From Ianthella basta (Eukaryota; Porifera; Demospongiae; Verongiida; Ianthellidae): a stretch of DNA of 64,000 nt. Position 1 is the first letter of the stretch. Every line of letters begins with the position of its first letter. The notes under the pieces were generated by a model that was not told the origin of the DNA, searched no databases, and saw only the letters and a list, made by a program, of their open reading frames with translations. Where the stretch lies: positions 2,797,879 through 2,861,878 of the forward strand of contig OZ025877.1 of the NCBI GenBank assembly GCA_964019415.1, read 5' to 3'. A program made the position numbers and the translations under genes. This document shows positions 21,251 through 62,678 of this stretch, piece by piece.

Positions 21251-21253
21251 GTG

Positions 21254-21906
21254 ATGAAGACGTATGCTTTCCAAGTTTTCATTGTTGGCGGCCAGCGTGT
21301 AGGGAAGAGCGCTCTCCTGAAGCAGATGTTTCTGGGAGAGCCTCTATCCGAAGCAGAGATGTTGTCCGAATTTGATGACCAGCAGGGCGCGGATGGGAGC
21401 AGCAAAGACAGAAGGAATACAAGATCGACAACGACTCGACGGTTATTCTAGAGGTATGGGACGCAGTGGGGTATGGTGGGGATTCAATAACGTCTCAGTT
21501 CTACAAAGAGTCAGTTGGTGTGATCCTTGTGTACGACAGCACTGCGTGCGATTCGCTGGAAGAGCTGCGACCTATTGAAGACAAGTGCAGAGACGTTCTC
21601 AAGGAGTTTGAGTGTGTGACATGCTTTCTCGTAGCCAACAAGATTGATGACGCGGACAGTGATCATCAGAACATCACATATGGAGAGCAGTATAAGAATC
21701 GACACAGGGACATGTATTCCGAGTTCTTCCAAGTTAGTGCAAATTGTGGGACTAATGTCGACAAGATGTTCCAGCGGATGGCAGAAGTACATCTGGATCG
21801 CCACAAAAGGGGAGCCATACAACCTGTCCGTCACAGTGACTCTGTGGTTGTGTTGCGTTCTACAGGGTCATCTCCGGCTTCTCAGAAGTCAAATTGTGAC
21901 TGTTGA
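21254..21906 (+). CDS. Rab-like small GTPase, intronless, one frameshift
   Basis: Starts at ATG 21254 (MKTYAFQVFIVGG). Motifs in order: P-loop GGQRVGKS, then after the frame break the G3 region LEVWDAVGYGGD, YKESVGVILVYDST, G4 NKID, G5-like VSANCG, and a C-terminal CDC that fits Rab-type CXC geranylgeranylation. Rab proteins are membrane-traffic switches. The frame must change near 21390, where GATGGGAGCAG reads in the first frame; one more G in that run would join both halves (GEQQRQKEYKIDND). So it is either a young pseudogene or a homopolymer sequencing error. The catalytic Gln of WDTAGQ is absent (AVGYGG), so hydrolysis may be atypical. No introns: possibly a retrocopy. Confidence 0.75.
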
Positions 21907-22799: not shown

Positions 22800-25700
22800 A
22801 TGGATTCAAAGGCGGTCCCTCGCGCTCAAGCTGGCAAAGGGATTCCTATCATTCGGCGGAGACCGCCCATACCACGGTACACCAAGTATGAACGATGCCC
22901 AAATAGAGTACCTTGTCTACGTGGATCAAACTGCACCTTTGCACATTCTGAGGAAGAGTTACATCACTGGTTCAGAAACAGGTTGGAGGAAGAGCCTAGA
23001 TTACAACCATCCAAAGGAGCAAGGCCGCCGTATCAGATGTGCAAGAATGTCCAGGACACTGGGTACTGTTCTTTTGATGTCCGCTGTAACTTCCCACACT
23101 CGAGGAAGGAGCTGGAAGCCTGGTCGCAGGGAAGGTATTTATTGCAGCACCACCACAATCAAATGCTATATTGTGATAGCTGTGCACTTGGTGCTAGACA
23201 CTGAAAGCACTACTATTTGCCATGAATGTTTCATGGCTCTGGGGGACTGAGCTATGTGGTTACCACATACCCCACTAGGCTGCTAGCTAGCTTACTGCGC
23301 GAGGGTGAAAAAATGTCAATTAAAATGTGAAATGTTACACTGAGGATTAAGGTTACCTGTTCAGTGCATAGCTCAGTGTTGTGGCTCTGGTAACCAGGTT
23401 TGACTTACCATTCAGCGCAAAACTTTTGCAGGACAATTTTTTCCGAATCGTAAAATTTTGGCTCAAACTGTAATTTTTGCAGGAAACGTTTTGTGTTTTG
23501 TGAGATGCAGGTAAGCCTCGCCCCATATATGATGGTGGCATAAAGCAAACAATCACCTCAAAGCTCTTGGAGCCATTGCAGTGTTGATGACACCATCATT
23601 TGTACGAAGTGTGGTTAGGTACGCCTGTACCTGCTTATCCAGCTCACTTCCGAACAACAATGGACGACCTCTTTTCTTGTCTACTAGTTCCTTCACAGCC
23701 ATATCTTTAGCTACCTGCTTTCTTATTCTTCGCCAATTCTACCTCGTACTTCTTCCAAGTTCGCACACTGCTGTCCTTGAGAGGACGGCCAGGGAACGCT
23801 TTGGAAAGGAATTGTACGGCCGCTGTTACACCGTGCTCTGCTGCCCTTTTCCAAATACAAGCCTTTTCTGAGTAAAGTACTTGTACGCTCCGCATTGTGA
23901 ACTGCAGGCAGTATTCTCTTTGTTCGCATCGGTGCTGATGACCTTCTTCACCTCTTTATTGGCAGCTATGATGGTGGATGCCGGTACTACTGTTGACAGC
24001 AAACTGTCTGGCATCGGTAGCACTGAACCAGGGTGCATGAAGTAGTCGTACAGACAGATTACCCGTAACGGCTGTAAACTTTAGGGTGGCAGGTGTAGCA
24101 GTAAACACTCAACGATGAGATCACGAGCATGAGGCACTGTGCCTTCTGAGCATGCACAGCTAGGCTAGATCGGCTGCGGTATATACATAGTAAATTAGTT
24201 ACAGGCAACTATGCCATCATCTGTCTTAGATCACCACCCAATGTATAAGCATAGAGTTATACAAAATATTCACGGGGAATATTTTTGTGAATTGTAATCT
24301 ATCCGTAAAATTCGCAAAAATTGTGCTCCTCGAAAATTTTGTGCCATGCGGTACTTCATAATTAAGAGTCATTATTTAGCACCTGACTGTTTGGTATGCA
24401 GTTGTGGTTATCCATTACTTAAGTGTGCTTTGTCTATTTTCAGTATTATCCAGGAAAGCACGGAGGTGTCTATTCGACCAAGACCTATAATCAGCCCCCT
24501 TGTTCGCTATGAGCTCTGCACGAACAAGCCACCTTGTCCACATGGCACGGGCTGCACTTTTGCTCACTCTAAAGAAGAGTTACGTCACTGGTTTCAGAGC
24601 AGGGTAAAGGAAGAACCGAGACAAGAACATCCAGCAGGGGTGGCACCAGAATACAAAATGTGTACGAATGTTGAGAAAAGTGGCTACTGTCAACACGATG
24701 TACACTGTCACTTCCCGCACTCCAAAGAAGAGCTGGATGCCTGGCAGAAAGTTGAGCACAGACCCCGTACCACTTTAGACAAGTATATGCCACAATTGGC
24801 CAATGAAGATTACACACCAGTGAAGTAAGTACTACCATGTCATCTCATCTATAATAGTGTAATGACCTTCTCCTTTGACAAGCAAATGAATGAATGGCTT
24901 GTACACATCTATCTTGTAGTATTGCCGAGCACAGAACACAATCACAACATGCTGAGGGGGTACTGCTCAGCCAACTGTCCAGAGAATGGCCAAGGCTAAA
25001 GTGAGTTTTCGATGTGCGGTTTAGCTCCTTTTGATTCCAAGCTGAATCCTATGAATATTTTTATTTTTATTTATTTAGATCCAGCCAATCACAGCCTCAG
25101 AGTACAGGAGCGTCCTCAGAAGCCTCAGGTGAGATTTTATACACGAGTGGTCAGTTGTCTGTTGGGTGATATACCATATTTGTCTCCAGTCGCCATGCAG
25201 ACTCAGATGGAGTCTGAGTCTTGTTTGAGGCTGAAGTTCACTGAGTTGTTCATTGCACTAGAGTTCCTGTGTCAACCTTTCACAGGCTCCCTCAATCTAT
25301 GCATGCAGACACTGATATTGCCTCATACTCAGGCTGTCCATGATATTGTTGTAATGTACACATGATTGCTGTTAGACTATGATGCAACAAAATTACTGCA
25401 GTATGAATGGTCACGTTTGCCACCTCTGATTCGACTTATACCATCTCTGGTAGCTACTAGTTAGTTATGGTTAACTTTCAGCAACGTAGCTGCGACAAGC
25501 TTGGAGTGAAAGAAACTTGCGTACTGTTCTGAGGTATGTCTTGGGAGCTGGGCCTTGCAAGGTCGTTGCCATGCAGTTTACACTGCTGTTTGCTACTTGG
25601 CTATCATTCTGTCGTCATTTCTAGGTAGAACTCACCAGCGCAGTCCTTCCCCGTATTGACAATGGTTGCTATCATAGTCTGAACACCTTAGACTGAGAAC

Positions 25701-28700
25701 CGTTGGCGTCTATGGGATTTACATCACTTTGGAAACTGATAGAGCCCCTTGCACATCGCATGCAGGCCTCAAAAAGTTGGTTTCTCATACACGGTGTTCT
25801 AAATCCTGTAGACACCTTGGATCTCAGTCTAACCCACGTATATGCATGCATGAGTATAATATAACTAGGCATATGCTAAGTGCATAATTTAGGAATTGCC
25901 TCGCAGCATGAACAGTACGTGGCCAGTACATGTACAAGTGTAATGTGATGTTACAGACTGGAGCTGTCTTAGTAGCCAAGCGCCTTGTTTATAACTGCCA
26001 AAGCTCCTCAAGCCTGGACTGCCACTGCTTGTCCGTCGCCGAGGCCAGTAGCCTTGCACCATTCTGTCGCATTCGCTTCTAGTCTGGCCTCTCTTTGCCC
26101 CGCTGTCTCCCTGTCAAGTTGCGCCCACCGTCTTGCAGCATGGCCCCTCGGCATGCTGGACACAGCTATGTCGTTGCCATTCCCATCTGCTCTCCTTCTG
26201 TGCTCCTCTTCCGCGGAAGCATGCCGGCAAAGTTGAGCAGCCGAACAGGAGCAGAAGACAAGCCATCATGTGATTGAGTCACATGCGCTGTCACGTGTTG
26301 TGCGATACATAATTCGGATATATATACGTATATCACCGAGGCTCGAATAGACAGCGATCAATGGCCTCACTTCGCTCGCTTACGCTCGCCACTCAGCAAT
26401 TATGGCACAATTACAATCCTTGAACGTTGTTTTCCAGTTTTGAAATTCCCTGAGCTTACCATTATGAAATTTGTGGCAAGGTAGTTGTAAGATGAAGGAT
26501 GAATATAATGGAGTAAAATGCAACTAATAATTATAATAATGGACTGAAGGCATAATTCTACCCACATGTACTCCACGTCTTCTCCCATGCACAGAGTGGC
26601 AGTTAGCGTACAAAGAATCCCTTGACAGGCATGGCTCCGTGGACGTGGATGTGAAACGATGCATCTTTGTTGGCACCCCGTCGGTAGGAAAGTCCTCCCT
26701 GAAGCACCTGCTCGTGCACAATGCGCCCAAGGCCGTCAAGAAGAGCACCGCTGTAATGGAAGCACCAGAGGTAGTCACAGAACGTTACGCTGTGGGGGAG
26801 TTCACCTCTGAGTGGCAGCCAGTCACAGATGACGTAATGGAGAAGTCTCTTCACAAGTGCATTGCAAAGAAGGAGTATAATGATGAACATACGTATCCAG
26901 AACTGCAGCAACCTGTGGAAGAAGAAGCTGTAGACGGACGCACTTCTGAAATGTCAGTAGCTTCGGCAGACTCCCAGGCACTTGAGCGTATGTCCACAAA
27001 AAATGAAGTTGTTGCTCTGCTTGAGAAGCATCGTCCCATCTTACCAGAAAGACTGGGAAAGAGCATCAAGCTGCAGCGCGCATCATTCATCCACCTGCTT
27101 GACACAGGTGGTCAGCCGTCTTTTCAGGATGCCCTCCCCCTCCTTTTGAATGCCCCGTGTACGTACATTCAGGTATTCAACGCATCCCGTGATCTGGACC
27201 AGCCTGTCCCCATCACCTATCGCCCCAGTGATGAAGAAGAGACAGAGGAAGATCAGCAGCTCAGTTCAGAGACAGCATGGGACACGATGCTGCGCTCCTT
27301 CTCCAGCATGCAGACCATGGCCCACAAGTGCTCCAAAAAGATGCCAATCTTTCAGCAGAAAGGAAGTCACCCACCAACGCTTCGCATTTTCGTTGTGGGC
27401 AACTTCAGAGATCAGCTCGTCAAGGAGGGAAGAGAAATGAAGGCGGTAGAGGATATTTGCAAGCGCTTGAAGAAGTTAGAGGTAAAGCCGTATTATCACT
27501 CTATCCAGGTTAATTCCGCAGGCCAGCCATTTTACCTCATCAACAGCATGGCTGAAAATGAGGATGACAGAGCCTATGTCAAATGTCTCCGTAAAGACAT
27601 TTCCAAAGCTGAGTATAGTCTACAGTTGAAGGTGCCTGTGATGTGGTTTCTCTGCATGCAAACCACACGACGTTGCCCACAGAAATTCCTCAGATTCCCG
27701 GATCTACAAGAATTCTGCTCGAAATGTGGTTTTGTAGATGGAGAAAATGCAGAAAAGCAATTTTCTGCCCTCCTACATCTGTTTTCCCTCCTTGGCTTTT
27801 ACTCTTTCTTCAACCTCCGAGGTGTTCCCAATGAAAGCAATTTTGTTTGCACTGACACCGGTGTCTTCCTCAAGGAGGTGTCCAAGCTGCTCGCCATACA
27901 GCACCACAAGCAACCAAGGTGCTCTGGTGTTAGGAAGTTCCAACAGTATGGCATCATCTCCAGTGAAGATGATGAACTCTTTGAGGAATTGGGCATTAGG
28001 AAGGAGGTGGACCGAAAGTGGTTCCTTGGAGCTCTGGAGCACCTTGGATTGTTGGCGCGCTATTCGGATTCTGGGTATTCTGCTCCATCTTACTTCATGC
28101 CTATTGCCCTGCCGCAAGAGAAGATGAAGATGGAAGATCAGGGCACTGTGGCCTCCCTTTGTGTCACCTTTGAATTCCCGGCTGCCACACCCCCTTTGGT
28201 CGACACAGACCTCCCACGAGGCATTTTCTGCCAACTGGCAGTGAAGCTCAGTAAAGTTGGTTCCTGGAAACCTTTTCCGAAAGCAAGCAATCGCAACACA
28301 GTCAAGTTCAGGTCGGGGAAGTTTGATGTGTACTTGAGGGAAGCACCAGGATTCATCAGCCTCACTCCCTTCCTGATGGAGGAGTTGGATGGGAAGGATC
28401 CAATAGCAGAACTCCATGAGCTTTGCAGAGAGATGCGCCACCTATTCTCCAAGGGCCTGGAATCTGCGGCTGATGATGTGTTAGGAGTCCAAGGCAGGCA
28501 AGCAGCCGATCTCGTGTTTGGGTTTGAGTGCTGCTGTGACTGCACTCAGACACCTCATCTAGCAACCCTCAGACAGGCAGCGTCAAAGGGAGACTCCCTG
28601 ATTTGCCAAGCCACAGAAGAGGGACGGGACAGCAAACAGGAAGAACAGATTTGGTTCAGTCTAGTAGACTCTAAGGTGAGGAGAAATGGTGGTGATGGAG

Positions 28701-28976
28701 GTTCAACAGCTGGAGCACAAGCTATATACTCATGCCAGTATACTGTCCTCGTTCCTTTTCCTGCTACATGATCTTGTGATTCTGTTCTGTGCCCACTACA
28801 GCTTGTGAAGCTAGACAGCATGTGGATCATGGAAAAGCCTTTTGACTCTACCAGATTTGGTGAGTGTGTCAGTGTCTGTCTCATGCACATATGTTATCAG
28901 ATATCAGTAGCTTGTAGAGTAGTCTTCTACTTTAGAGTACTTTCGTTCAGTGTTGATAAATGTACATAGTTGTTGT

Positions 28977-29038
<62 letters not shown>

Positions 29039-30486
29039 GTTTGGTACATGCCAGCTAGTGTGGATCATGTAGTATGACCCAATTGGGAAGAGCATAGTTT
29101 CCAGATCAGTTTTAATAGAAGCATGCACGACTACACTTGTACATAAATCCCACTTCTTTATAGCGTATAGCGGGAAATATTGGCGGGCATAAAATTTGGC
29201 AGATTTGCCATGAAAGGCATTTGGCAGTTTTTAAATTTGGCAGATTTCGTTCCCCAAGACTGATGATGTCACAAAATGGCTATTGACGGCCAAGGAGAAG
29301 AGGCTTCGTGGGCAGTGACTGTCACCACAACAGTCGTGTTCTCAGCATGCTGCATTGCCTTCAACTTCTCTGCAGGTATCGTACTTCAGCCTTCTCGTGG
29401 TTGTTTCAGGCATTGCGAAGTGTCTAGTTGCTCTAGCGGGACCGTTTTTAGCTGCGATTCTTCCTATCTTCGCTCTCTCTTCAGGCGTGTGGCCCGTGTA
29501 AGAGCCACGAGTCACACTGTGCTTCATGTCGACCTTCGCTTGCTCACCAGGCACGAGAGCTTGCCTCACGCTTTTGTTCACGTGTTTTGTCTCCTTCCTT
29601 GAGAGAGCGTCACACTTGAGCACAGGTCCTTCTCTCTGTACATACTTCAACAGCGTCATCTGGCAATCAACTCCAGTGCACATGCGTAATGAACTGCAAG
29701 TTACTCATACGTATACTTATTGTACTGTATTGCATGTGTTTATAATAGCCGGAAATATTGGCGGGGTTTTAATTTGATGGATTTTCTGAAAACCGCCAAA
29801 ATTATTGCCCGCCAATATTTCCCGCTATATGGTATACTGTGACTCCTTCAGTCTCAGCAGCTAGTTTGGCATGGTCGACACAAGCTGGTTTGCACTTTTG
29901 ATGTTTACCTGTTCATGTCTATACTTACACAGCAACTGTTGGTGCTCCTGTTGGCCCAGAAACGGATGAACACGAGTACAAGAAACTTATTGTTCCAATT
30001 TTCAGGACCAAGCCTCCTCGGCCCTGTATAGAGACAAGAGATGTCCTTGACATGGTGGCGCGTCACCAGAAGGAGATCAACGCCATGCTGAACCACCCCG
30101 CCGGAGGAACGGTGCACTTTGGCATCCAAGATGAAGGCAACATTGTGGAGGAGGGACTTGATATTGACCAGGATGAAGCCATGGATGCAATTCTAGCACT
30201 AGTTGGACAGATAGTGCAGAATTTCTTCCCTGCAGTGGGTGCATCGTTCTGGAGTGTTAAACCAGTGAACCTCCTTGACAGCAATGGGAGACAAACTGGA
30301 CGATGGAGATTTGACATCTGTGTGAAACCACACACCCACACGATTGTTTGGCTCGGACGAAACGACACTAAGGCTTACTACCGCCAAGGAGCCTGCAGCC
30401 ATCCAATGCCAGCGGATATGCTGGAGGAAAGGATAAAAGGTTCGTTAACTCTCCCTTCTTCCATTAAGCCCCACCCATATGCCTAG
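22800..30486 (+). CDS. Multidomain protein: 2 double-CCCH cassettes, P-loop GTPase/COR, AlbA_2 (Schlafen-like)
   Basis: Seven exons join in phase: 22800-23134, 24444-24824, 24920-25000, 25079-25128, 26595-28675, 28802-28859 and 29933-30486, giving 3540 nt and 1179 codons before TAG. Exons 1 and 2 each encode one C-x5-C-x5-C-x3-H and one C-x8-C-x5-C-x3-H finger with a FAHSxEEL..W signature, as in HELZ/ZC3H7-type RNA-binding fingers. Exons 3-4 encode a Gln/Ser-rich linker. Exon 5 is a GTPase with a COR-like domain. Exon 7 is an AlbA_2 domain. The first ATG lies just after a TATA promoter and 5'-UTR intron. A longer 3' end is possible because AAAAG/GTTCGT at 30438 is a weak donor. Each domain is recognisable, but I know of no described protein with this order. 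A role in RNA sensing or antiviral defence is inference from the modules. Confidence 0.8.
23407..24347 (-). mobile_element. DNA transposon remnant in intron 1, HTH-coding
   Basis: Imperfect terminal inverted repeats of about 40 bp (left ...GCGCAAAACTTTTGC...CAATTTTTTCCGAAT; right, reversed, ...GCACAAAATTTTCGAG...CAATTTTTGCGAAT). The minus strand encodes a helix-turn-helix piece, GKRAAEHGVTAAVQFLSKAF followed by DSSVRTWKKY, with a frameshift near 23850. The matching intron of the second gene (around 40740) lacks the block and reads straight across, giving an empty site inside the window. Confidence 0.7.
26595..28675 (+). CDS. GTPase-COR exon of gene 1
   Basis: One 2081-nt exon entered through a split Glu codon (G/AG, EWQLAYKESL). 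G1 is FVGTPSVGKSSL, G3 is LLDTGGQPSFQDALPLLL and a G4-like motif is VVGNFRD (NxxD). Between G1 and G3 lies a variable acidic stretch of about 90 residues. After the GTPase come a COR-A-like helical part (TRRCPQKFLRFPDLQEFC...ALLHLFSLLGFYSFFN) and a COR-B-like part (YFMPIALPQ, DLPRGIFCQLAVKL, then a CCCDC motif near the end). Roc-COR proteins are GTP-driven switches that usually dimerise through COR. Long antisense frames here are shadows. The exon ends in phase 0 at TCTAAG/GTGAGG. Confidence 0.85.
28979..29034. repeat. (GT)n microsatellite
   Basis: About 28 GT repeats in the intron between the 58-nt exon and the AlbA_2 exon. Confidence 0.95.
29168..29827 (-). mobile_element. 660-bp TIR element with TA target duplication, Tc1/mariner-like size class
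   Basis: Perfect 22-bp terminal inverted repeats starting TAGCGGGAAATATTGGCG on each side, bordered by TA (29166-29167 and 29828-29829). The minus strand inside encodes a helix-turn-helix-like TPEERAKIGRIAAKNGPAR followed by ATRHFAM, related in pattern to the HTH in the 23.4-kb element. The 113-codon ORF (29342-29683) is too short for a full transposase, so the element is non-autonomous. Confidence 0.8.
29933..30486 (+). CDS. Terminal exon of gene 1: AlbA_2 / Schlafen-type domain
   Basis: Enters from the 58-nt exon through a split Ala codon (G/CA). The core AlbA_2 signature is INAMLNHPAGGTVHFGIQD followed by EGNIVEEGLDI, and the C-terminal part AYYRQGACSHPM fits the usual RxG.SS.PM strand. 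AlbA_2 is the N-terminal fold of Schlafen proteins, which bind and in some cases cut tRNA, and of many bacterial transcription factors. Catalytic acidic residues cannot be assigned by eye. It ends at TAG 30484-30486, 12 codons after the conserved ERIKG. Confidence 0.75.
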
Positions 30487-31050: not shown

Positions 31051-32203
31051 CTCAGTACGTTACCTTCTGTAGCCACTGTGACCAGACGCTCGAGTGTCAA
31101 TGCAAGCCCCATATAACCTCAAGGATGTACAGTATAGGGTTCCTGAAGATTGTGTACCATTGTGTGTATAGCAGGCTATGCTATATGACTTTGGACGCAT
31201 ATGTTTTACGTACAATTGTAAATGTTCCATTCGACTTCTCTTTATGTATAACTAGCAGGGTGCCCGCCTTCGGCAGGCTTCTGCTATGGTGAGTCGCACA
31301 ACAGCGAGTCAGCCCTAGCCAGTTTTGACGTATGTGAGCTGGTAGCAACGGAAGGTAGCTGCTATATTAATAATAACGACGGCCGAGTTTAAAGTTGATC
31401 GTTGAACAACAGCGAATCAAACCGTCCAAAAACTGGAAGTCAAGGGAGCGATAATTAATAAAATGGCCGTCAGCCGTGAATGAAAAACCGGAAATAGAAA
31501 GATATCTCTTCAAGAACTGCAAGACGGGCGATTTCAACCCGTGGAGGACACTCGCGGAGCCCCACTTTATAATCCCTGAGAGTTTAGTGGCGATCTGTGC
31601 AGTAGTTTTTGCCCGAAACGCGAACGAACAGACAAACAAACAAACAAACAAACAAACTGAATTATATATATTGACAATTGTAGATATAATGCATGAGAGT
31701 TAATTGAGTTTGGTGAATCAGATTTTCAATTGGCCAGCTGTAGACTCTACAAATACTGTAGGCACTCTGCATGCATGTATGCAGGAGCCGGCCAGCTGCA
31801 GGTGGGCTGAGGTGGGCTGAGGTGGGCTGAAATTCATAGACAGAGAATGTAGACATTGGTATAATTATGCAAAATACACAATTATACCCTGAGCTTCTTG
31901 GTACACAACAGGTCATGAATTTTATTAGTATACTTCATCAAGTCCCATGCAGACCCCCACCCCCCAACCACTATAGCTGGCTCATGGTTTACAAAGAAAG
32001 ACAAAACTACATTCATTTTTCACTGCAGCACTTGTCACTTAAGCAGCTGAAGGGCTTGGCAGTACCAAATGACATTACTGAGCTTAGCAGTTTCTATTAT
32101 TTATCACCATTAATTTAGCATCAAACCAATAATACTGTCTAAAATGTTACCATAGCTACCACTGCATCACTTAGGCTACCACAATCTACACTACCTAAAC
32201 ATT

Positions 32204-34608: not shown

Positions 34609-34627
34609 CTCTCACCACCCAGCCAAG

Positions 34628-38896: not shown

Positions 38897-41409
38897 ATGG
38901 ATCCACAGTTAACTACCCAAGCTGGTGAAGCAATTCGGCGGAGACCGTCAATATCACCAGATAAGAAGTATGAGCGCTGCATGAATATAGTACCTTGTGA
39001 AGATGGGTCGAGCTGCACCTTTGCTCACTCGAAAGAAGAGTTGCACCACTGGTTTCAAAGCAGGGCAGAAGAAGAACCCAGGTTGCATCCTACCAAGGGG
39101 GCAAGACCGCCATATCAGATGTGCAAAGTTGCTGAGAGTAGTGGATACTGTCCTCATGATGTCCACTGTAACTTCCCGCACTCAAAGGAGGAGATAGAAG
39201 CCTGGAAAAGGTACACTGTATTGTAAATAGCACATTGTGCAATTAGCCCAAACTTGAGATTTCTTTATTGATAACTGGACTATGTTGGCACCTCCTTGGT
39301 TGTTCTGTGCAACTCCTCTAGATCCAGACGCAATGTATCTGCATAGTGCTATATATTTTATCTCTATGTATGTGCCATTTCGTAATGCATCCGCTTCTTC
39401 AGTAATTAGAGTCACCTCTTGGCAACTGGGTGCTTAAATCAACTAATCCAGTTTCAGCCCTAAACTGCTGATAGTTTTTACTAACAGTAAAACTGCAAGA
39501 AAAACTCAAAGCCATGCACGAATCATTGTTATTGCTAGGCAATTAATGTCAACTAATCTGATAGTTTCAATTAGGCGAAGTGCAGTTGTGGGCTGCATGG
39601 ACGCAGACGGTTATTACTGTCATGCTGGCCTAACTGTTCTTTACGCTCGATTAGAACTTTCTAGTTCTATAGTGTTAGATGAAAATTTGTAACGCATGCA
39701 TGCAAACATGAGTGGTACCACACACTAACCATTGCCTTTCTTTGTATGCACATTTCAGTACTATCCAAGAACGTGAAGAGGTATCTATACGACCAAGGCC
39801 TGAAATTCACCCCTTTGCTCATTATGACATCTGCAAGAATGCAGCACCTTGCCCAAATGGTTTGAAATGCACCTTCGCTCATTCTGAGAAGGAATTACAT
39901 GTCTGGTTTCAAACCAGGGTGAGAGAAGAGCCCAGGAAACAACCTCCCAAAGGGGCACGGCCACCGTTTCAGAAATGCAAGAATGTTGAAGACACTGGAT
40001 ATTGTCAATTTGATGTGCACTGCAAATTCTGGCACTCAGAGGAAGAGTTGAAAGCCTGGGAAAGGTGATGTAACATGAATGTATTTATGCACGCTAAGGT
40101 ATAGTAGCTCAATCTAAACGCTTTAGGGTACATTACCTTTGGCTAAGTAACTCGAAACTGTACAGCCAACTATCATAATTCTTGCAAAAGTGATTGTCAA
40201 GGACCGATAGTTTGGCACAAACCATTAATTGATTGGCACTTTCTTACTGTAAATAAATTGAAATTCAGAAACACTCACAGGAGTAATCAAACAGATTCGT
40301 GATTATATGTAATTAGCTGTGCATGCAAAGTTCGCCTTCAGCAAGCCCTAAATTTGCCCCCGAACACCAAATCCCTGTCCCTTGTGACGCTCTATGCCAT
40401 ATTGTAATTGTCACTGAACTGATCTCATACGCTGGAAGTTGGCAGGTGAAATTTGCACAAAAACTGTTGTGCCATTCTCTCCTCGGCTGTAGGCTATTGG
40501 AGAATGCCGACACTTTTGGTGCACCCTACAGCATGGCATCGTATCGCGGGGAACATTTGGTGGCAATCTGTTTGCAGCTGCTTGAGAAATGTTGGGACCA
40601 AATCTGCCTGATTTCTCTATGTGAAAAAAAGTGAAAGTGAAGTGAAGTGAAAGTGAAAGTGAAAGTGAAAAAGTGAAATATTATACCGAGGATTAATTTT
40701 CTCTGCTCCATACATGGAAAGCTCAATGTTGTGGCTCTGGTTCGACCTACGTCATGATTCAGAGTCATTATTTAGCACCTGAGTGTTTTGGTGTACAGTT
40801 GTGGTTATTCATTACTTAAGTGTGCTGTGTCTATTTTCAGTATTATCCAGGAAAGCACAGAGGTGTCCATTCGACCAAGACCTATAATTCCCCCCCTTGT
40901 CCGCTATGAGCTCTGCATGAACAAGCCACCTTGTCCACATGGCACGGGCTGCACTTTTGCTCACTCTAAAGAAGAGTTATGTTACTGGTTTCAGAGCAGG
41001 GTAATGGAAGAACCAAGACAAGAACATCCAGCAGGGGTGGCACCAGAATACAAAATGTGTGCGAATGTTGAGAAAAGTGGCTACTGTCAACACGATGTGC
41101 ACTGTCACTTCCCGCACTCCAAAGAAGAGCTGGATGCCTGGCAGAAAGTTGAGCACAGACCACGTACCACTTTAGACAAGTATATGCCACAATTGGCCAA
41201 TGAAGATTACACACCAGTGAAGTAAGTACTACCGTGTCATCTCATCCATACATGTGTAGTGACCTTCTCCTTTGACAAGCAAAGGAATGAATGAACTAGT
41301 GGCTTGTTACATATCCATCTTGTTGTAGTATTGCCGAGCACAGAACACAATCACAACATGCTGAGGGGGTACTGCTCAGCCAGCTGTCAAGAGAATGGCC
41401 CAGGCTAAA
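38897..41409 (+). CDS. CCCH cassettes 1-3 and linker exon of gene 2
   Basis: Cassette 1 (38897-39210) starts MDPQLTTQAGEAIRRRPS, matching the start of gene 1. Its fingers are C-x5-C-x5-C-x3-H and C-x8-C-x5-C-x3-H. Cassette 2 is 39759-40064. Cassette 3 (40841-41221) with the linker exon 41329-41409 is nearly identical, introns included, to 24345-25080 of gene 1. The first copy of the following linker exon (41489) diverges from gene 1 after seven bases. Confidence 0.8.
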
Positions 41410-44026
41410 GTGAGTTTTCATTGTGCAATTCAGCTTTCTTTTGGTTCCTAGCTGAATTCTATGAATATTGTTATTTTTATTTATTTAGATCCAGCTTAGG
41501 GTCAGTGAAATTGTCTTCTGCAGTTGAAATTACCTTCCTAGTTGTATTTCTGATGAAGATCACTGCCACAGTTGCTTAAGTAGCAGCTGACTTTGATTTA
41601 GCTACTGTAGTCAGACGATGATGTCCATGTAGAAGACAATTCCATGCATTTGACCCAGACCATGTGCACATTGACCAGCGCACTACATATGATGCCATGA
41701 TGATCATATACACTAGGAAAGCGGCCTGGGCTGGCCAGTTGGATGGTAGAAGTTGTATATACCCCTGTATTCGCTGTTCAAAAAATTAACTCCCTGACCG
41801 TGCCTACATCATCTTCAAAATGCAATCATTTGTGTGTGAACTTCTCACTCCTACCCCCTCCCTGTTTGGGGTGCTGAAGCCCCTGTATGGTTTTCACTTT
41901 TAGGTATTTGTATGCTTCATGTTTGCATGAACATACAGTGCAAGTTACAATATACAGCACTAATCTAAAGTACATAATTTAATATAATATAATATAAAGA
42001 AATAATTCCCAGGAATTTTTACAGCCCTCATGAACATGTGTTAGGTATGGCTTTCAAGTATGAAAGATTTTAAGACTTTTAAATGAGACTTAATTTTTAA
42101 TTAGGTCTTTGTTCTATAAGCAGCCTGCCAAATGCTAATATAAATGTGCCTAGGAGAACACTTATTGTATGGTGCATTGATATTGATGCATAGTGGTATC
42201 TTGTATATTAATGTAACTGAGCTCAGTGAGACGTGAAACTTGGTGGAGACGTTCAAGTGGTCCACCTTCCTGTGTTATTAGCGGAATTTCTTAATTAGTC
42301 TCAAAATGGCCGACATATGTGAGGCGTATGATTTATTCAACCAGCCAGTCCCGCTCAGTCATGACTCTTGGTGGACCTAGCCAGATAATCCAACTGTTCA
42401 GGTCATTAGCAGGATTTCTTAATTAGTTGCAAAATGGCCGAGAAAAGTGAGGTTCATTGCATATCCCACCAACCCAGCCCCACTAAGTGGAAATAGTTAG
42501 ATGGCCAATTTGCTCATGTCATTAGCAGGATTGCTTAATTAGTCACAAAATGGAGGCGATGTTTTGAACAATCACTTTTTGACACCAATTTGTAGGCATT
42601 TGCCGCTTTGTTGGAGCAGAGCAGCACCCACATGTATATTTGCTCACAACTATCCAGCCACAATATCCAGCTACTATACCACCACATAGACAAATACAAC
42701 CGCCATCACCACCACCACAGTGGAAGTTGCAGTGAGCACACCAGTATATTGTGTGCTAGAGCTGCAAGAAACAGACAACCACATCAGGTGCTGCTACCAC
42801 ATACTACTACTACCTCCTCACAGTGCAAGTTACGATGCATGCATTCAGTATATGCGCCATTGCTCTAGAAAAACACCACCACCACCACACAGTGCAAGTT
42901 ACAATATCGCATCCACCACCATCTGTGCCAGCAGAGTATCTGTGCTAGTTGGTCATAGAAAAAGACTAGTGCAGATACTCTACTGGCACATGTGGTGGTG
43001 GCTACTGTAATTTGCACTGGTGGTGGTCTTTTTCTATGACCAACTGGCGCAGATACTCTGCTGGCACAGGTGGTGGTGGCTGCAATATTGTAACTTGCAC
43101 TGTGTAGTTGTGTAATCTAATATATAAAGCCAAAAGTGTCTGTCTGTGCGTCTGTGAAACGCACGTGCGTTTCTGCTCCATCGTTGTCAAACTCGCTGTG
43201 GTTGTTGAGGGCACTGGGGGTCAGGTTATAGTGGGGTTGACATCATCCGTCTTGCGATTCGAAGAGAGTTATCCTTCCATTTCCACTTTTTAGCAACCCC
43301 TATATTGTTTTCGTTTTGACATTTTGTTTTATGGCTTCTTGTTACGCTTCCGGTGGTATGTCAGTATGTATGTATGTTAATATAATATGTAAACTGCAGC
43401 AGTATAGGTGTGCTTGCATTTATATAATAATGTATCAACGGAAGTATTGAAGATAGGGAATATGTATTGTCAGCCAGTTTGTTTGCCTCTCTCATACTGG
43501 AAAAACCAAGGGAAAGACTCTGAAACCGGCTTCCAAATGTCCCTCCATGCAGAGCATAGGCGTCTTCTGCTTTCAAATGTTGTAGAACAGGCGACCACAC
43601 TACCTCTGGTCTGAAGGCGTGCAAGAGGCAGCGGGATAACACCCAGCAGTTCGGCGACTTGGTTCACATGCCACTTTCAATCACGGCCACCCCGTTTAAG
43701 TACTTCAGTTCCCTGTCTGAGTCTCAGAGAAGTGATAGAAGTGACGTAGAACTTGATGAGCCACGCAAATTCTGTTCAAAACCATTTGGCAACGGTCTCT
43801 AGCTTTTAAAGTCTAAGCAGTTACCCTTCAATCTTTCCTGGTGCGCTTAGTGCAGTCGAGCAAACTGCCTTCAGCTACAACAGAACCCTAACCGCTGCAA
43901 TGACTGCAGGTGTGCTGTAAAGCACTTGCAGCTACCTGTGTGCTCTCCATTCATGTCCCTCTCCTCTCATCCATGTCTTTTAGAGAGCATGTACGTATGC
44001 TTACACGTGTGTGTTTAGCGTAGCTA

Positions 44027-44084
<58 letters not shown>

Positions 44085-47000
44085 TGCGTGCGTGTGTGTG
44101 TTTCTGTGTGTGTGTGTGTGTACTTGATTGTGATTTTGGCTACTCCGAGAATGTGCAATCTTTGTATAAGGTATGTAGCTAACTTAATGACTCTATTCAT
44201 GTCCGCTTCAATCATTTGTGTTCATTCTTGCCTATGAAGTGTGTTCACAAGTGTGTTGATGAATTACACAAAATTAAGTGCAATAGCTACTATTACATTG
44301 ATAACACAGCAGCGACTGGAGGAAGCAAGTATTTCGAGTTGGGGTGGAGTCTCACCAGTTTTTAACTCGAAATACCTGTTTCTCAGCAGACTGGACTTGA
44401 TTGGCTGTCATTCCACAGTCAAATTTTAACTGATAATCATCCATTTTTAGCTGTACTAGCAATAACATGGTTGCTGAGGGCACCGGGGGACAGGCATTGG
44501 ACACCGTAGCTCGCCAAATTCTCTGCTAGTATGCATATTTCTGTCATTGCAGATGGTGGCGCTCATGTCGTTCTTTACAAAGTTTTAAATTGTCTCTAAT
44601 GGCATTTTGCCGTAATTAAATCAAACAAGATGTAGTCATAAGCATGTGATAATAGATTGATACTGAAAAAGCCTAAGGAACATCTCTTCTACTCTTGGCA
44701 AGATACAGCTCCAATTATCACGGACAGACGGACATTGTAAAATGTCCACGCACTCGACGCTCTCTGTTTGCTAGGCTCAAAATCATCTTTCTTTATATTT
44801 CACCATGTATCCAAGGAAGGAAAGTGTTTCTAGAACATGTTTTTAAGTAATAGTATTCTAGTAGGAAGCTTACCTAACTGTTCTCCTGCGAGGTACAATG
44901 GCCCATTGGCCAATAATGGCAGACAAGTGAATCACGGCATTACGTACCTCATAGGGTAGCCTTGTAGCCAGCATGCTTTTCATCCAGGCACAAAGTAACA
45001 AGTACATCCTCATTCAGAATGTTATATAGATCAAAAAGCAGTCAGCAAACATTTTGGTAGGGGTGCTTTCCCTGGATGACTGGCTGCTCTGCAGACTTGA
45101 AACTCTTGCAAACCCAACAGTCTATTGTATTGTGATGTATCTTTCAGGCCATCAGCAATGCTGCATTTCCAACTATTTGAACTACACAGGGAAGTTGCTT
45201 GCAAGTAGTTTGAGTTCAGGGGTGCCCCAGCGCCCGAGTTTTTTTAACTTGAATAACTGTTTGTCATTATGCCTTTCTGGTTGCATAGATTTATGTGAAT
45301 GGGCATTTGTGAAGTCACATCAGTAGATGTACAATACCATACAATAGCTTCAAGTCACACCATTGTAAAACTGATAGCAATTAAGTGGCTAGCTACCTTG
45401 GATTTCTTCCTGTTCAGTATGCCTACAAACAAGAGTGTCAAGATGACAGAGTGACACCAATTTTACACCATTTTCTATGTTTTGCATGGACACAGAGGAT
45501 TATGTCATTACCTTCAAACCTGTACTGCTGTAGCTGCACGAATCTTCAACTTTTGGCAGCAGTTTGACAAAGATTATGTCAACACCACACAGGATTGCCA
45601 ATGAAGAGTCTGCATGCAAGACCTAACTTGAGCTACTATAGCTATTGAGTGAGCATTTCCATTCTTTGTGTTCAACTCTGTATTAGTCTGGCCAACATAT
45701 ATACCTGTTTATAGTCTGGAGCCACACAGAGCATGTATAGTACTATGGTATTCCTATAGATCTGAAGTGAGGGCTTCTCAGCTGGCTCAGGCATCAGAAA
45801 GGGGTTGGTTCTCTAATACCAGCTTCACAACAGGGTTGAAAACCTTGCCGACGTTTCGACCAGATGCTCTGGTTTTCGCCCTGAAGAAGACCAGAGCATC
45901 TGGTCGAAACGTCGGCAAGGTTTTCAATCCTGTTGTGAAGCTGGTATTAGAGAACCAACCCCTTTCCTATAGATCTGTCCTGAAATTCTATTATCCTAAT
46001 TATATATGTTATATATAAGCCTTGCAATTGTATAATGTATACAAACAGATTTTATAGTAACATAATCATTGGTGTGCTTTGTATGTTTTCAGAAATATGC
46101 CGGAAGGTGAAAAGGTACCTATTCGATCAAGGCCTGAAATAGAGCCCTCTGCTTGTTATGACATCTGCAAGAACAGGGCACCTTGTCCAAATGGGATGGA
46201 ATGCACCTTCGCTCATTCTGAAGAGGAGTTACATCGCTGGTTTCAAAGCAGGGTAGAAGAAGAACCCAGGTTGCATCCTACAAAGGGGGCAAGACCGCCA
46301 TATCAGATGTGCAAAGTTGCTGAGAGTAATGGATACTGTCCTCATGATGTCCACTGTAACTTCGCGCACTCAAAGGAGGAGATAGAAGCCTGGAAAAGGT
46401 ACACTGTATTGTAAATAGCACATTGTGCAATTAGCCTAAAATTGAGCTTTCTTTATTGATAACTGGACTATGTTGGCACCTCCTTGGTTGTTCTGTGCAA
46501 CTCCTCTAGATCCAGATGCAATGTATCTGCATAGTGCTATATATTTTATCTCTATGTATGTGCCATTTTGTAATGCATCCGCCTCTTCAGTAATTTGAGT
46601 CACCTCTTGGCAACTGGGTGCTAAAATCAACTAATCCAGTTTCATCCCTAAACTGCTGATAGTTTTTACTAACAGTAAAACTGCAAGAAAAACTCAAAGC
46701 CATGCACGAATCATTGTTATTGCTAGGCAATTAATGTCAACTAATCTGATAGTTTCAATTAGGCGAAGTGCAGTTGTGGGCTGCATGGACGCAGACGGTT
46801 ATTACTGTCATGCCGGCCTAACTGTTCTTTACGCTCGATTAGAACTTTCTTGTTCTGTAGTGTTAGATGAAAATTTGTAACACATGCAAACATGAGTGGT
46901 ACCACACACTAACCATTGCCTATCTTTGTATGCACATTTCAGTACTATCCAAGAACGTGAAGAGGTATCTATACGACCAAGGCCTGAAATTCCCCCCCTT

Positions 47001-50000
47001 GCTCATTATGACATCTGCAAGAATGCAGCACCTTGCCCAAAAGGTTTGAAATGCACCTTCGCTCATTCTGAGGAGGAATTACATGTCTGGTTTCAAACCA
47101 GGGTGAGAGAAGAGCCCAGGAAACAACCTCCCAAAGGGGCATGGCCACCATTTCAGAAATGCAAGAATGTTGAAGACACTGGATATTGTCAATTTGATGT
47201 GCACTGCAAATTCTGGCACTCAGAGGAAGAGTTGAAAGCCTGGGAAAGGTGATGTAACATAAATATATTTATGCACGCTAAGGTAGTAGCACAATCTAAA
47301 AGCTTTAGGGTACATTACCTTTGGCTAAGTAACTCTAAATTATTATATTATCAAGTATGCAGTATAATATGGTAATGTATATTAAAGTAAATGAAAAAGG
47401 GCAGTCAGTTAAATTGGGAGCATTTTGTGCCCCCCAAAAAGAAAGACAGTCAAGGAAAGAAATCAAGAGGGGAGCTTGTGCCTCTTATTTCTAGTATACT
47501 AGCCAAATACCCGCCCTTCATTTGGGTTCCGAGCCTGTTGTTTGTAATTTGAGTGTTGAACCAATCAAAACTGTCCATTTAATTGGGAGCATTCCGTAGA
47601 CTTGCTCCATACAACTTCATACCTACAGAATTTACTTAATTAAGTTAATCCATTTTGTCTAAAGGAATCCAGCAGTACCAGAGTGAGGGTACAAGATTAT
47701 GAGTGATCTTCATCGTAGAAAACCACTTGCTGCGCAATAGCTAGCTTAAATTTCACGCGTTGCCTTGAGAGGCAAATTGACATGGCAATCTGCATGCAAG
47801 GAAAATGAACCTCCAATATGCCCCTGCCTTGCTATTGCCATTAGCTGTTCAATGGCAATAGCAAGGCAGGAGCAACTACAACTTCCTTTCTGAGTAACAT
47901 CTGGTATTACCCCACTTGCATGGGCTAAATTACTGTAAGTCTTCTAAAAATTCAACAGCTTATTTTTGCAAACTTTCCACAGTCATGCTTTGAAATATTC
48001 TAGAACTTTGAATTCATGGGCAACTCTAAAGTTTGTGTAGACCTCTAATTTTTGGCAGTGGTTACTACGGTAGTGCATAACACACCTTGTGGAATAGTGC
48101 CTAACAACAGTAAACATACCTAATGAAGTAGTGTTGCCTTCGAAATATCCAATGCATTGAGATTAGCTACTAACTAGTTGCTATGAGTAGCGCAGGTGAC
48201 AGCTACGGCTTCCTGCCCTGGTCTTTCTTTTCCTTGGCAACTCATATGAAATCCTCTGCAATATTGGGGCTCCAAACCTCCAAACCTCCAAACCTCCAAA
48301 CCTCCAAACCTGTAGACATGATTTCAGTGAATAATGAATGACACTATGATGAGGAAGGAACCAGTGGTAACCATTTAACTCATAGAGGTTTCCAGAAAAT
48401 GGCAGCAGACAGCACCTCTAATTTTAGAAGAGGCTCTAATTTTCACAACACATGAATGAAGAAGAACATATTTCCTCCTAAATTTGAAAAGTCAGAGTTG
48501 AAAGTCGTAAAAGCAAGGGCGGATCCAGGGGTGTTTCAAAGGTTTCCAGAAACTGGTCAGATCACCTCTGGCTAGTATTTACATGTATCAGTCTTATAAT
48601 GTCTATGCTTCCTTATAGATATACCTTCATGTGTTGGAAACCAGTCATAAAAGTTTCTCGGATCTGCCCTAGATGTGCGCATGATTTGTGACAATCTTAT
48701 GAAAGAAATCATCCTAGAACGTCATATCTGACGGCTAGGTATGTACCTAAGGACGAAAACAAGCCGTACCACGCGTCTTGATTGAATCGTTTGAGCGAAA
48801 ATGCCTACTAGCACGATGTGCCATAATGTCGTCAGCCAATTTTTAGAGATATATTACGAGGATGTCATGGCCTCTGAGGGTGGGTTGCTACGATTGCTCA
48901 CAAAACGAACATTCTGGCTATCGGTGTTGGCAGGAAGAGGCACGTTGATGGCTCATTTCATATGCAAAAGAAACTATCCAGCCTTTCCATGCATGCATTG
49001 TTCGTCCTGGCTTCCTGTGAGGAGTTACACTGCACAAAAGTTGGTCAGAAAGAAATGAAAGTTAGTTTTCTTGCTGTAACTTTGCATAGGATTATAGTTT
49101 AACAACAATGCATGCATGCAAAAGTTAGGTCGTACGTGTATGAACAGATTAATGTTCTCTTTTTCCTTTTAAATGTTCCACCAATAACCAGAATGACATT
49201 TCCTGTGAATTGGGTGGCTTCGTTAGCGGTGAGAATTTTCAATGTATCAAGTTGCCATAATAAGATATCATATGTAGAATTGGAGAGCTGAGTTTGCTCT
49301 TTCTTCTGGTACTTGTCTGACTTTGATTACCAAATTTTGCAGGAGATATAAGCAATTATACGAAGGTAAAAAGTCGGCCGCCATTGTTGAGCGATTGTTA
49401 CATAAGATATGTCCCACATGCGTTGACTTTGGTTAATACAGACCAAAGGGACCTTCCGGATTTGGAAATCGCTCTCAGACCATACTTGTCACAGACCCAC
49501 CTGATGTCCTCACTGGTTCCTGCGACATAGGGGAGCATCAGCATTAAGGGTCACTGAGTGCCATTGTCTCCTGGTTCTACTTCATGGTCAACCGGCTCCT
49601 GGGTGGGATGTGGCTGGAAGGAGGAACAATTGAAGGCATCAGGGTAACCATTTAGCTTTAGGGCAGTGGCGATGTGACACTCTTCTTGAGCAAGGTTGTC
49701 ACGTGAAGCGGTGATGTTCCTGGCTCTGTCATGTAGTCACCTGACTAGGCCTCTCCTGATGTGGAGGGGGTGGTAGGATTGAAAGTCCAGGTAGCGGCTG
49801 GTGTGCGTGGGCTTCCTGTACCCCAAGAAAGCACGCCTGACATAACTGAGCCAGCTAAGAAGCTCCCATAGAAGTGGCAGCAGGTGGACAACAGGCGACC
49901 ACTTACTTTTCCAATCTTCCTTGACCGTACCCACTTATGAAGAGTGTCGAGTCGGGTTAAGATCATGTCACAGCCTTCTTTGGAAACAAAATATTCAATT

Positions 50001-56000: not shown

Positions 56001-59000
56001 AAGGTTGTTTACCAGATCCCCTGCAGCTGTTGAATGGCCTACATTGGAGAGACGACCAGGAGGCTTGAAACGAGGAAAAAGGAACACCAGGATGCTTGCT
56101 GCAGGGGAATGCCAGAGACTTCCGCTGTGTCAGAGCATGCCTGGGAACACCACCCCATCGACTGGGGAGGCACCAAGGTGATTGACTGAGCCAGCAGGTC
56201 CAAGGAGCTACAGCTCAAGGAAGCCCTTCGTATCCAGATGTTAACTGAGGAGCTCCACAACCGAGACATTGGACTGGAGGACCGAGCGCTGGCTGGCCAC
56301 CCTGAAGCGACAAGACATTAAAGGCCGTGGGCAAACCCGAACTCGTGACAGCTAGTGGCACTGCAAATAGTATAGCACTTGATTGTGCGTAGCATGCACA
56401 TGCAGGAGAGACAAAATGCTGGCTGAAAAATAGCCACAGGACTGCCAAAATTGATGTAAACAACTCAAAGTTGTTGACCCTTCATAACAGGTGAAATAAC
56501 TGTGTATATGTGTGCGCCTTTGTTTTGGACATAAATGGGACATATAGTGAGTTAAGTTTTTTTTATCTTACTTATCATTTTTGGTGTGCTTTGTATGTTT
56601 TCAGATATGTGCAGGAATATGAAGAGGTGCCTATTCGACCAAGGCCTGAAATTAACCCCCTTGTTCCATACGAGATGTGCAAGAACAAAGAGGATTGTCT
56701 GTATGGGCTGGATTGCACCTCAGCTCATTCTGAAGAGGAGTTATGTCATTGGATTCAAAGCAGAGTGAAAGACAAGCCTAGACAAGATCCTCCAGCATGG
56801 GTGAAACCAGATTACAGAATGTGCGGAAATGTGGAGGAAAGAGGATACTGCCCTAGTGATGTGCACTGTCACTGCCCACACTCCAAGAATGAGCTAGATG
56901 CCTGGCTTGCACACAGGCCACCTGCTAGTGTTCATGACAATGTGCTGGAAGCTGCAGGTGAGAAACATAGTGGACTACATTTGCTTAGTCTTGTGCATGG
57001 TATTTCACAGTACGTATCTATAGCTGTACATGTGACTAAATTTCTTCTCAGTATGGGATTTAACTATCACTATGTATAGTTATAATTATTATATCTGAAA
57101 TGAACATTTATTGAGTGATCACATGATACATATGAAGTGATTGGTTCTCCGATGGTGGGAACATGATGCTGCAACATGGGTTCTCTGTAACTGGTGTAGG
57201 TCAGGTAATCTAACGTTTCAACTAGATGCTCTAGCCTTCTTCAGGTTCATAACTGGCTGGTGTGAAAATGATACATCCTTACTAGACTGCAAGAGCATTA
57301 GAAGGCATGCAGAGAGGGCTCCACTGGGATCAGCTGCTGCTGCAGAACATTCACATCGACACCTACACCCAATTCAATGGGAGGAAATCTCAATTCTGGA
57401 CCAGGTCAGGTACACAGAGAGCTATACTCTTGAAGGAATCCATCCACATCTGCTCAACTCAAGCCCTGGAATGCTTTAATGGAGGACCTGATCTGCTGTC
57501 ATGCTGGCTCATGATGCTGAAAGCGTGTGAGTGAAAACCCCTGGCAGAATCAGATCTGGCCCTTCCAGTCATGAGTATGGATGGTAATCGTGTACTTAAA
57601 TACGTATCATTTTCACACCAGTCAGGTATACCTCTGAAGAAGGCTAGAGCATCTAGACAAATGTCAGATAACTCAAACCTACACTGGTTACAGAGAAGTC
57701 TCATTGCAGCATCAGATCACATGATATTCAACTAATTTCCTGGGTCCTTCCAAAACAATTTTAAATGACTACGATACAAATTACTTAATAATGATATGGT
57801 AAGAGTCTTGTATTAATGGAATGAAGGCATAATTCAACTCCACATGTACTCTGCTTCTTTTCCCACAGAGTGGCAATTAGCATACAAAGAATCTCTCGAC
57901 AAGCATGGCTCTGTAGAGGTGGACGTGAAACGCTGCATGTTTGTTGGCACACCATCAGTTGGGAAGTCCACCCTCAAGCACCTCCTTGTGCACAACAAGC
58001 CGAAGGACATCAAGAGGAGCACTGCTGTAATGGAAACGCCAGAGGTAGTCACAGAGCATTATGCTGTGGGCGAGTTCACTTCTGAGTGGCAGCTAGCCAC
58101 TGATGACATCATGGAGAGTTCTATCCGCGAGTCCATTGAAACGAAGCAATATAATAGTGAAAATGCATTACCAGAAGTACACCAACCAGAAGAAGAAGAA
58201 ACTGCACACATGCATACTTCTAACATGACAAGAGCTTTGGAGGATACCCAAGCAGTTGAGCGTACATCCATGAGAAAAGTAGCTTCAGCAGACTGCCAGA
58301 CACTTGAGCGTATGTCCACAAAAAATGAAGCCGTTGCTTTACTTGAGAAGCATCTCCCCAATTTAGCTGGACAACAGGGAGAGAGTATCAAGCTGCAGGA
58401 TGCATCATTCATCCACCTGCTTGACACCGGTGGTCAGCCATCTTTCCAAGATGCCCTCCCCCTTCTTTTGAATGCCCCCTGTACGTACATCCAGGTATTC
58501 AATGCAGCCCGTGATCTGGACCAGCCTTTCCCCATCACCTATCGCCCCAGTGATGAAGAGGATGAACAGGTGCAGGAAGCTCAGCAGCTCAGCTCCGAGA
58601 CAGCATGGGACATGATGCTTCGCTCCTTTTCCAGCATGCAGACCATGGCCCACAAGTGCTCCAAAAAGATGCCAATCTTTCAGCAGAAAGGAAGCCACCT
58701 GCCAAAGCTTCGTATTTTTGTTGTGGGCAACTTCAGAGATTATCTTGTCAAAGAGGGAAGGGAAATGAAGGTGGTAGAGGATATTTGCAAGCGCTTGAAG
58801 AAGTTAGAAGGAAAGCCGTATTATCACTCTATCCAGGTTAATTCTGAAGGCCAGCCATTTTACCTCATCAACAGCATGGCTGAAAATGAGGATGACAGAG
58901 CCTATGTCCAAAGTCTCCGTAAAGACATTTCCAAAGCTGAGTTTAGTCTACAGCTGAAGGTGCCTGTGACGTGGTTTCTCTGCATGCAAACCACACGACG

Positions 59001-60184: not shown

Positions 60185-62678
<2,494 letters not shown>

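Follow-up and report, generated by a model that had tools for sequence, protein, structure and literature searches.

The question raised by this locus is whether CCCH zinc fingers, a GTPase with a COR-like region and an AlbA_2 domain can belong to one protein, and what such a protein might do. The stretch analysed (the window) is 64,000 nucleotides of the sponge Ianthella basta (GCA_964019415.1, contig OZ025877.1, here C10:2797879-2861878), and a sequence-only reading had proposed that a single gene between 22800 and 30486 encodes all three parts in that order. Examination of this gene against the genome (209 Mb in 96 contigs, numbered C1, C2 and so on) supported both the single gene and its three-part order, as copies with identical exon order were found, including a diverged paralogue on C11. 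A seven-exon gene with this domain order is therefore well supported by its sequence and copies, its splicing in vivo being predicted.

Gene structure and copies

The gene lies on the + strand and comprises seven exons and six GT-AG introns, with phases that are compatible across exons 1-7 in the exon map. It encodes 1179 codons plus a stop, from an ATG at 22800 to a TAG at 30484-30486, which reproduces the frame of the sequence-only reading together with its ends and its junctions at 25128 and 29933. The exons, and a repeat element within the last intron, are as follows.

22800..23134, + strand: exon 1, with the start codon and first CCCH pair (gene model, Pfam)
24444..24824, + strand: exon 2, with the second CCCH pair; conserved in the C11 paralogue
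24920..25000, + strand: exon 3, linker; four C10 copies have it, and in C11 a 44-nt stretch matches its end
25079..25128, + strand: exon 4, linker; seen in C10 copies, not located in C11
26595..28675, + strand: exon 5, with a GTPase-like domain and a COR-like region
28802..28859, + strand: exon 6, 58 nt; the C11 counterpart is also 58 nt with identical splice sites
29159..29836, strand not applicable: inverted-repeat element in intron 6, with 48-nt arms that are 85% complementary
29933..30486, + strand: exon 7, AlbA_2 domain, terminating at the TAG

The stop-to-stop frame of exon 5 is 743 amino acids long, whereas the longest in 200 dinucleotide shuffles was 255, and the 194-amino-acid frame of exon 7 was attained by one of 500 such shuffles. 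Three further C10 copies, at 2487k, 2718k and 2649k, carry the full set of seven exons in the same order, the inner borders showing AG/GT, and that at 2487k is intact. The C11 paralogue lies on the reverse strand within 4.769-4.790 Mb and has the CCCH exons, exon 5 and exon 7 in identical order; its identity with the window gene is 65-66% over the CCCH exons, 79% (tblastn) or 80% (genome search) over exon 5 and 74% over exon 7. Exons 5 and 7 are separated by 1257 bases in the window gene versus about 720 in C11, and the CCCH half of the paralogue lies some 12.8 kb from its exon 5 with a reverse-transcriptase-like frame (by eye) between them. Purifying selection has acted between the window gene and the C11 paralogue: the ratio of nonsynonymous to synonymous substitution rates (dN/dS; NG86/YN00) was 0.17/0.24 for exon 5, 0.28/0.39 for exon 7 and 0.25/0.42 for exon 2, and for exon 1, where dS was saturated and YN00 failed, NG86 gave 0.12. 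Two sets of observations weigh against the model. Two of the four seven-exon C10 copies are broken: at 2718k, exon 2 is interrupted by a stop and exon 5 by a frameshift, and at 2649k exon 5 is frameshifted, exon 6 is two bases shorter and exon 7 contains a stop. In the C11 paralogue neither the start nor exon 4 was located, and what was found of exon 3 is the 44-nt match.

We note that the copy at C10:2487k-2495k, 333 kb from the window gene, hardly differs from it (exon 7 protein 100% identical, exon 5 DNA 99.6%), which reflects either recent duplication or an artefact of the assembly. A candidate processed copy at C10:2520k was rejected because its exon 7 retains intron flank. A further intron after 30440 (AAAG/GT) was also dropped and the stop kept at 30484-30486; the C11 frame closes 10 codons past the shared RIKG, directly after which C11 diverges as well, and a later C11 stretch that is 76% identical to window 31065-31195 looks untranslated by eye. 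Other copies in the window, all found as genome matches, are less complete.

56609..60186, + strand: second window copy, with a CCCH exon, a GTPase-COR exon (in frame 57817-60018) and exon 6
38918..41410, + strand: partial copies, consisting of CCCH exons, the last one followed by exon 3
46067..47249, + strand: additional CCCH exons, with no GTPase exon following

Among the matches to the window exon 7 protein, none lies downstream of the second window copy as an AlbA_2 domain.

The three domains

The zinc fingers, the two GTPase motifs with their candidate third, the COR-like region and a proposed acidic triad in the AlbA_2 domain were placed as follows.

about 22896-22946 and 23040-23102, + strand: fingers of exon 1 (spacing and positions by eye)
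about 24517-24567 and 24661-24720, + strand: fingers of exon 2 (spacing and positions by eye)
26672..26695, + strand: GTPSVGKS, residues 309-316 (read in the sequence)
27101..27115, + strand: DTGGQ, residues 452-456 (read in the sequence)
27401..27412, + strand: NFRD, residues 552-555, candidate G4, shared with the second window copy and with C11
27635..28675, + strand, approximate bounds: COR-like region (weak COR-A on sister copies; COR-B on the homologue L084)
29959..29976, + strand: E1005 and E1010 in ETDEHEYK, the putative first and second acids of the triad (positions from a manual count)
30130..30132, + strand: D1062, proposed third triad residue (from conservation among the aligned rows)

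The CCCH fingers that had been read from the sequence are real. The N-terminal 283 amino acids matched Pfam zf-CCCH over three stretches (E 5.2e-8, 33.1 bits against a cut-off of 20.5), and four fingers can be seen by eye as two pairs, each with the spacing CX5CX5CX3H then CX8CX5CX3H. As regards the HELZ/ZC3H7 type to which the fingers had been assigned, a search of the PDB with this part returned Roquin-1 (0.0011), butyrate response factor 2 (0.0013) and ZC3H7A (0.0062).

The proposed GTPase and COR region stood in part: the GTPase motifs are visible, and Roc and COR were not reached at the Pfam cut-offs. We take GTPSVGKS to be the G1 motif or P-loop, DTGGQ to be G3 and NFRD to be a candidate G4. 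The Pfam Roc family scored 19.8 of the 27 bits required on the GTPase part, COR-A scored 13.8 on the second window copy and 13.4 on the C11 copy of the 35.3 required, and COR-B scored 19.3 of 27 on L084 (C10:2516301-2518300), a sequence that is homologous to the exon 5 copies over about 300 amino acids (phmmer E 1.8e-10 to 1.4e-14 in a three-sequence search). As these weak matches occur in the right order, a COR region in exon 5 is likely on sequence grounds, short of proof; and since both Roc and COR stay under the cut-offs, the COR assignment rests on homology. Besides these low scores, several results count against it. The candidate G4 departs from NKxD; Pfam COR-A found no match on the window copy itself; whole-genome family searches did not place window exon 5 among 24 COR-A places (E<=0.001) or 14 COR-B places (E<=0.1); a PDB search with the COR profile returned nothing at E up to 10; and an AlphaFold model of exon 5, with the two window copies as alignment, was unusable (mean predicted local distance difference test, pLDDT, 29.2). 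The PDB search with exon 5 gave nothing sensible, and comparing the exon 5 profile (effective number of sequences, Neff, 1.1) with profiles of this genome's LRRK-like ROCO genes yielded a probability of 0.6%. The same profile matched the window open reading frame at 62651-63478 weakly (probability 17%). That frame is a partial, nearly identical copy of L084, which represents a further COR-like family on C10. Clustered LRRK-like genes are found on C20 (3.93-4.36 Mb), with COR-A over the cut-off and a kinase-like stretch (by eye) in one open frame.

Exon 7 alone matched Pfam SLFN_AlbA_2 at one bit over the cut-off (E 1.2e-5, 26.3 bits against 25.3), in agreement with the AlbA_2 domain that had been read there. 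When a profile of 11 AlbA_2 relatives was searched against the PDB, it matched rabbit SAMD9 (9o0d, E 2.1e-4), human SAMD9 (7ksp, 5e-4) and longer SAMD9 chains (0.025), and no Schlafen structure. The AlbA_2 fold of the sequence-only reading was thus borne out, and its label of Schlafen-type is better given as SAMD9/Schlafen-type, since the profile finds SAMD9 structures and no Schlafens. One AlbA_2 match and no second lobe was seen with Pfam, where a diverged first lobe could escape detection. The proposed triad was equated with SLFN and SAMD9 residues by motif and spacing, not by structure. It is complete in the window copy, and among the 14 rows that cover the first motif, out of 18 distinct stop-free AlbA_2 rows (11 of which formed the profile alignment), E1005 is kept in 14, E1010 in 13 and D1062 in 12. 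The HEYK of the window protein resembles the HEFK of SAMD9, which contains E196 and K198 by our numbering of the 7ksp sequence. The domain assignment has evidence against it as well: the whole 1179-amino-acid protein scored 21.5 bits, under the cut-off of 25.3; exon 7 was absent from the 12 places found by a whole-genome AlbA_2 family search at E<=0.001, which include the C11 copy and two C10 copies over the cut-off; the HMMER alignment to 7ksp leaves HEYK unpaired with HEFK, the two being equated by motif; and AlphaFold of exon 7 alone was unusable (mean pLDDT 38.3). With exon 7 alone, the PDB search returned chance matches of the nucleoside diphosphate kinase kind and nothing else.

The exon 7 protein matched 31 places in the genome. 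At C1:15513k, a single uninterrupted frame of 1132 amino acids has ankyrin repeats (Ank_2 E 2.5e-131) followed by SLFN_AlbA_2 at 27.9 bits, over the cut-off. Ankyrin-repeat proteins with a terminal AlbA_2 domain, some of them single long frames and several ending in a basic tail, make up the C1 clusters (C1:15513550-15514062, 15537k and neighbours). In a tree of the 14 AlbA_2 rows, the C10 and C11 members were joined (100/99) and grouped with the ankyrin-type copy C1:15537k and with C1:14617k (100/100), the long branch of the latter being unsure; C1:15537k and C1:15513k have identical AlbA_2 domain sequence. The AlbA_2 alignment gave 80 pattern matches on bacterial or archaeal contigs and 33 on viral contigs, none of which was confirmed.

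The GTPase-COR family and its ends

The exon 5 protein matched 80 places, which merged to at least 64 loci on ten contigs, a lower bound with 64 of 305 candidates scored. This GTPase-COR expansion reaches C6, C5, C16, C2, C3, C1, C11, C52 and C75, well past the CCCH/AlbA_2 subgroup. Five of the 64 loci have an AlbA_2 domain within 6 kb downstream, and all five are preceded by CCCH exons that share their orientation (four within 6 kb, and C11 at 12.8 kb). CCCH exons lie upstream of six loci, the sixth being the second window copy at 56.6-60.2 kb. On C6 (7.50-7.58 Mb), at least six loci have a related kinase 0.2-5.0 kb upstream (E 4.2e-26 for that at C6:7575351) and a Death-like stretch downstream, and this helical-looking stretch of about 95 residues is found downstream of at least 10 of the 64 loci. 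The name Death-like was given by eye: the one member tested had no Pfam match at E up to 10, and its best PDB match was the CRADD death domain at E 0.42. It has at least 150 matches in the genome (C1, C2, C3, C5, C6, C10, C16 and others) and so forms a large unnamed family. These neighbour counts used 10 of 31 AlbA_2 matches, 14 of 47 CCCH matches, 11 of at least 150 kinase matches and 18 of at least 150 Death-like matches; the others were set aside by eye, being either remote from all GTPase loci or a second exon of one gene.

DAPK has the order kinase, GTPase-COR, Death. A sister arrangement of kinase, GTPase-COR and Death-like stretch, as in DAPK, is likely in the C6 paralogues, where it is read from neighbouring pieces that may form one gene. 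Because these paralogues bear a kinase and a Death-like stretch where the window gene has CCCH fingers and AlbA_2, both ends of a ROCO-like switch appear to have been exchanged.

As regards other genes in the window, a Ras-family GTPase gene lies directly upstream (about 21233-21906, + strand; Pfam Ras E 7.8e-15 on 21379-21906), preceded by three short collagen-like genes in a row (4304-5495, 10774-11742 and 18258-19565, - strand; by eye). A shared reverse-transcriptase/GIY-YIG-like protein is encoded in opposite orientations at 33472-34611 (- strand) and 34544-35308 (+ strand), and is probably a Penelope-like element (by eye). A retroelement reverse-transcriptase-like frame lies at 52080-54221 (+ strand), and the fragment that separates the two halves of the C11 paralogue is related to it (by eye).

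Possible functions and related systems

COR domains of ROCO proteins dimerise, and GTP gates their activity. We tentatively propose, at somewhat less than an even chance, that the window gene encodes a ROCO-like switch protein in which the CCCH part binds RNA, the GTPase-COR part binds GTP and changes assembly, and AlbA_2 cuts RNA. The four N-terminal fingers would bind and hold RNA, the central part would bind GTP, change its assembly state and probably dimerise, and the C-terminal AlbA_2 domain, related to the SAMD9 tRNase and the Schlafen core, would cut RNA when copies are brought together, the substrate being most likely tRNA or ribosome-associated RNA. The GTPase-COR core would thus be a GTP-dependent assembly switch and both ends its RNA-directed output, and the family would keep the switch and swap the ends, with a kinase and Death-like stretch in some paralogues and CCCH fingers and AlbA_2 here. 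The sequence-only reading had described a sensor, a switch and an effector for foreign or damaged RNA. This is weakened in its first term, as the N-terminal position holds a kinase, which is an output module, in at least six C6 paralogues; an order with the sensor first is therefore not required, and the CCCH part may choose RNA for AlbA_2 rather than sense it. GTP binding, dimerisation, RNase activity, a role in defence and the sensing of foreign RNA are predicted properties. A more specific version, which we regard as doubtful, is that the protein is a GTP-gated, RNA-directed nuclease of tRNA or rRNA in innate immunity: a SAMD9/Schlafen-fold RNase controlled by a ROCO-like GTPase rather than by a STAND ATPase, its substrate selected by the CCCH fingers. 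Such a protein would have arisen in an early-branching animal by exchange of both ends of a switch present in at least 64 loci.

Several known systems resemble parts of this protein. SAMD9 and SAMD9L are the nearest solved relatives of exon 7, have comparable triad residues and likewise link AlbA_2 to a nucleoside triphosphate (NTP)-binding part in one protein, which in SAMD9 is described as STAND-like (in part of PMC5445408); however, the window protein has no match to the SIR2, STAND, TPR or OB parts that follow AlbA_2 in the SAMD9 family (Pfam, E up to 1), and has AlbA_2 last with CCCH fingers and GTPase-COR instead. The Schlafens SLFN11, SLFN13 and SLFN14 share the Pfam SLFN_AlbA_2 match and, as in E205 and E210 of SLFN13, two glutamates five apart, but the window protein has one AlbA_2 match and no second lobe or helicase match. 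ROCO or AP-GTPase proteins (DAPK, LRRK) also have a GTPase followed by a COR-like region, and the C6 paralogues, at least six in number, add a kinase and a Death-like stretch, in the manner of DAPK; the window gene differs in its sub-threshold Roc and COR, in a long insert between G1 and G3, and in having no kinase or leucine-rich repeat match. Passages of PMC8195603 describe AP-GTPase-COR proteins with leucine-rich repeats as DAP kinase homologues and report that TRADD-N has expanded greatly in the sponge Amphimedon, and in brown algae exon-shuffled ROCO genes are presented as candidate immune receptors (excerpts of PMC11378527). RNase L and IRE1 (sensor, kinase, KEN nuclease) share with the proposed protein the logic of a regulated RNase whose ends can be exchanged, and this genome has both ankyrin-AlbA_2 and CCCH-AlbA_2 proteins, although the KEN/HEPN nuclease of RNase L and IRE1 is unrelated to AlbA_2; KEN nucleases are fused to ankyrin and, in some, to CCCH (passages of PMC3710099). 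The combination of CCCH, GTPase-COR and AlbA_2 in one protein was not found among the best-ranked matches in the open-access literature.

The main rival, which we consider unlikely, is that AlbA_2 of the single gene binds nucleic acid without cutting, as in SLFN5, the protein then serving as an RNA-binding scaffold or a translational repressor under GTP regulation. SLFN5 is described as binding tRNA without cleavage (passages of PMC11221667), and the triad shows departures that count against an RNase: the third acid is N in the C11 paralogue and absent in C1:14617k, the second is Q in the orphan exon at C10:2525k, and the counterpart of SAMD9 E218 is R by our own count from the NAMLN motif. 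PMC12331169 calls E218 essential, names E196 and K198 of SAMD9, and reports that D241 of SAMD9L is replaced by N in horses and in many carnivores. Cleavage by SLFN13 is reported to require E205, E210 and D248, the first two mutants being fully inactive (parts of PMC5862951), and the antiviral and translational effects of SAMD9L to need E198/D243 (PMC11221667, in passages). It is the equivalents of the first two SLFN13 acids that are kept in 14 and 13 of the 14 rows here, and the window triad is complete. An RNase is favoured for exon 7 because of the match to the SAMD9 tRNase domain and the kept acidic triad, so that the cutting of RNA by AlbA_2 is the activity we would predict.

Another possibility, which seems improbable, is that AlbA_2 is a sensor of double-stranded nucleic acid, that GTPase-COR signals to partners and that the CCCH part directs the whole assembly to RNA. 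AlbA_2 of SAMD9 is said in parts of PMC11221667 to bind double-stranded nucleic acid, and signalling modules (the kinase and the Death-like stretch) occur in some paralogues; yet among the matches listed none of these adjoins a C10 or C11 member, which leaves this explanation without a known output. It is quite improbable that there are two adjacent genes, a CCCH gene closing after exon 4 and a GTPase-COR-AlbA_2 gene that begins at exon 5 or an unseen exon. Some CCCH exons are indeed not followed by a GTPase exon (window 38.9-41.4 and 46.1-47.2 kb, and at C10:2503k, with none in the 4.3 kb examined), intron 4 is 1466 bp long, the C11 halves are about 12.8 kb apart, and an in-frame Met precedes the GTPase exon of the second window copy. 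Neither the exon 5 frame of the window gene nor the C11 frame has an ATG before the P-loop, however, and matching phases over all seven exons, together with CCCH exons upstream in the same orientation at five of five AlbA_2-bearing GTPase loci, argue for one gene. That the chimera is a functionless by-product of a recently expanding, decaying tandem array, as the broken copies at C10:2718k and 2649k and the orphan exon 7 at C10:2525k might suggest, is very improbable given two intact copies and a dN/dS under 1 for each of the four exons compared with C11.

If the proposed GTP-switched RNase is correct, Schlafen-fold RNases, which are central to the SAMD9 and SLFN antiviral responses of humans, can be wired to different NTP switches. 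One GTPase-COR core, with kinase and Death-like ends in some members and CCCH and AlbA_2 ends in others, would then provide a natural series for how ROCO-like switches drive their outputs.

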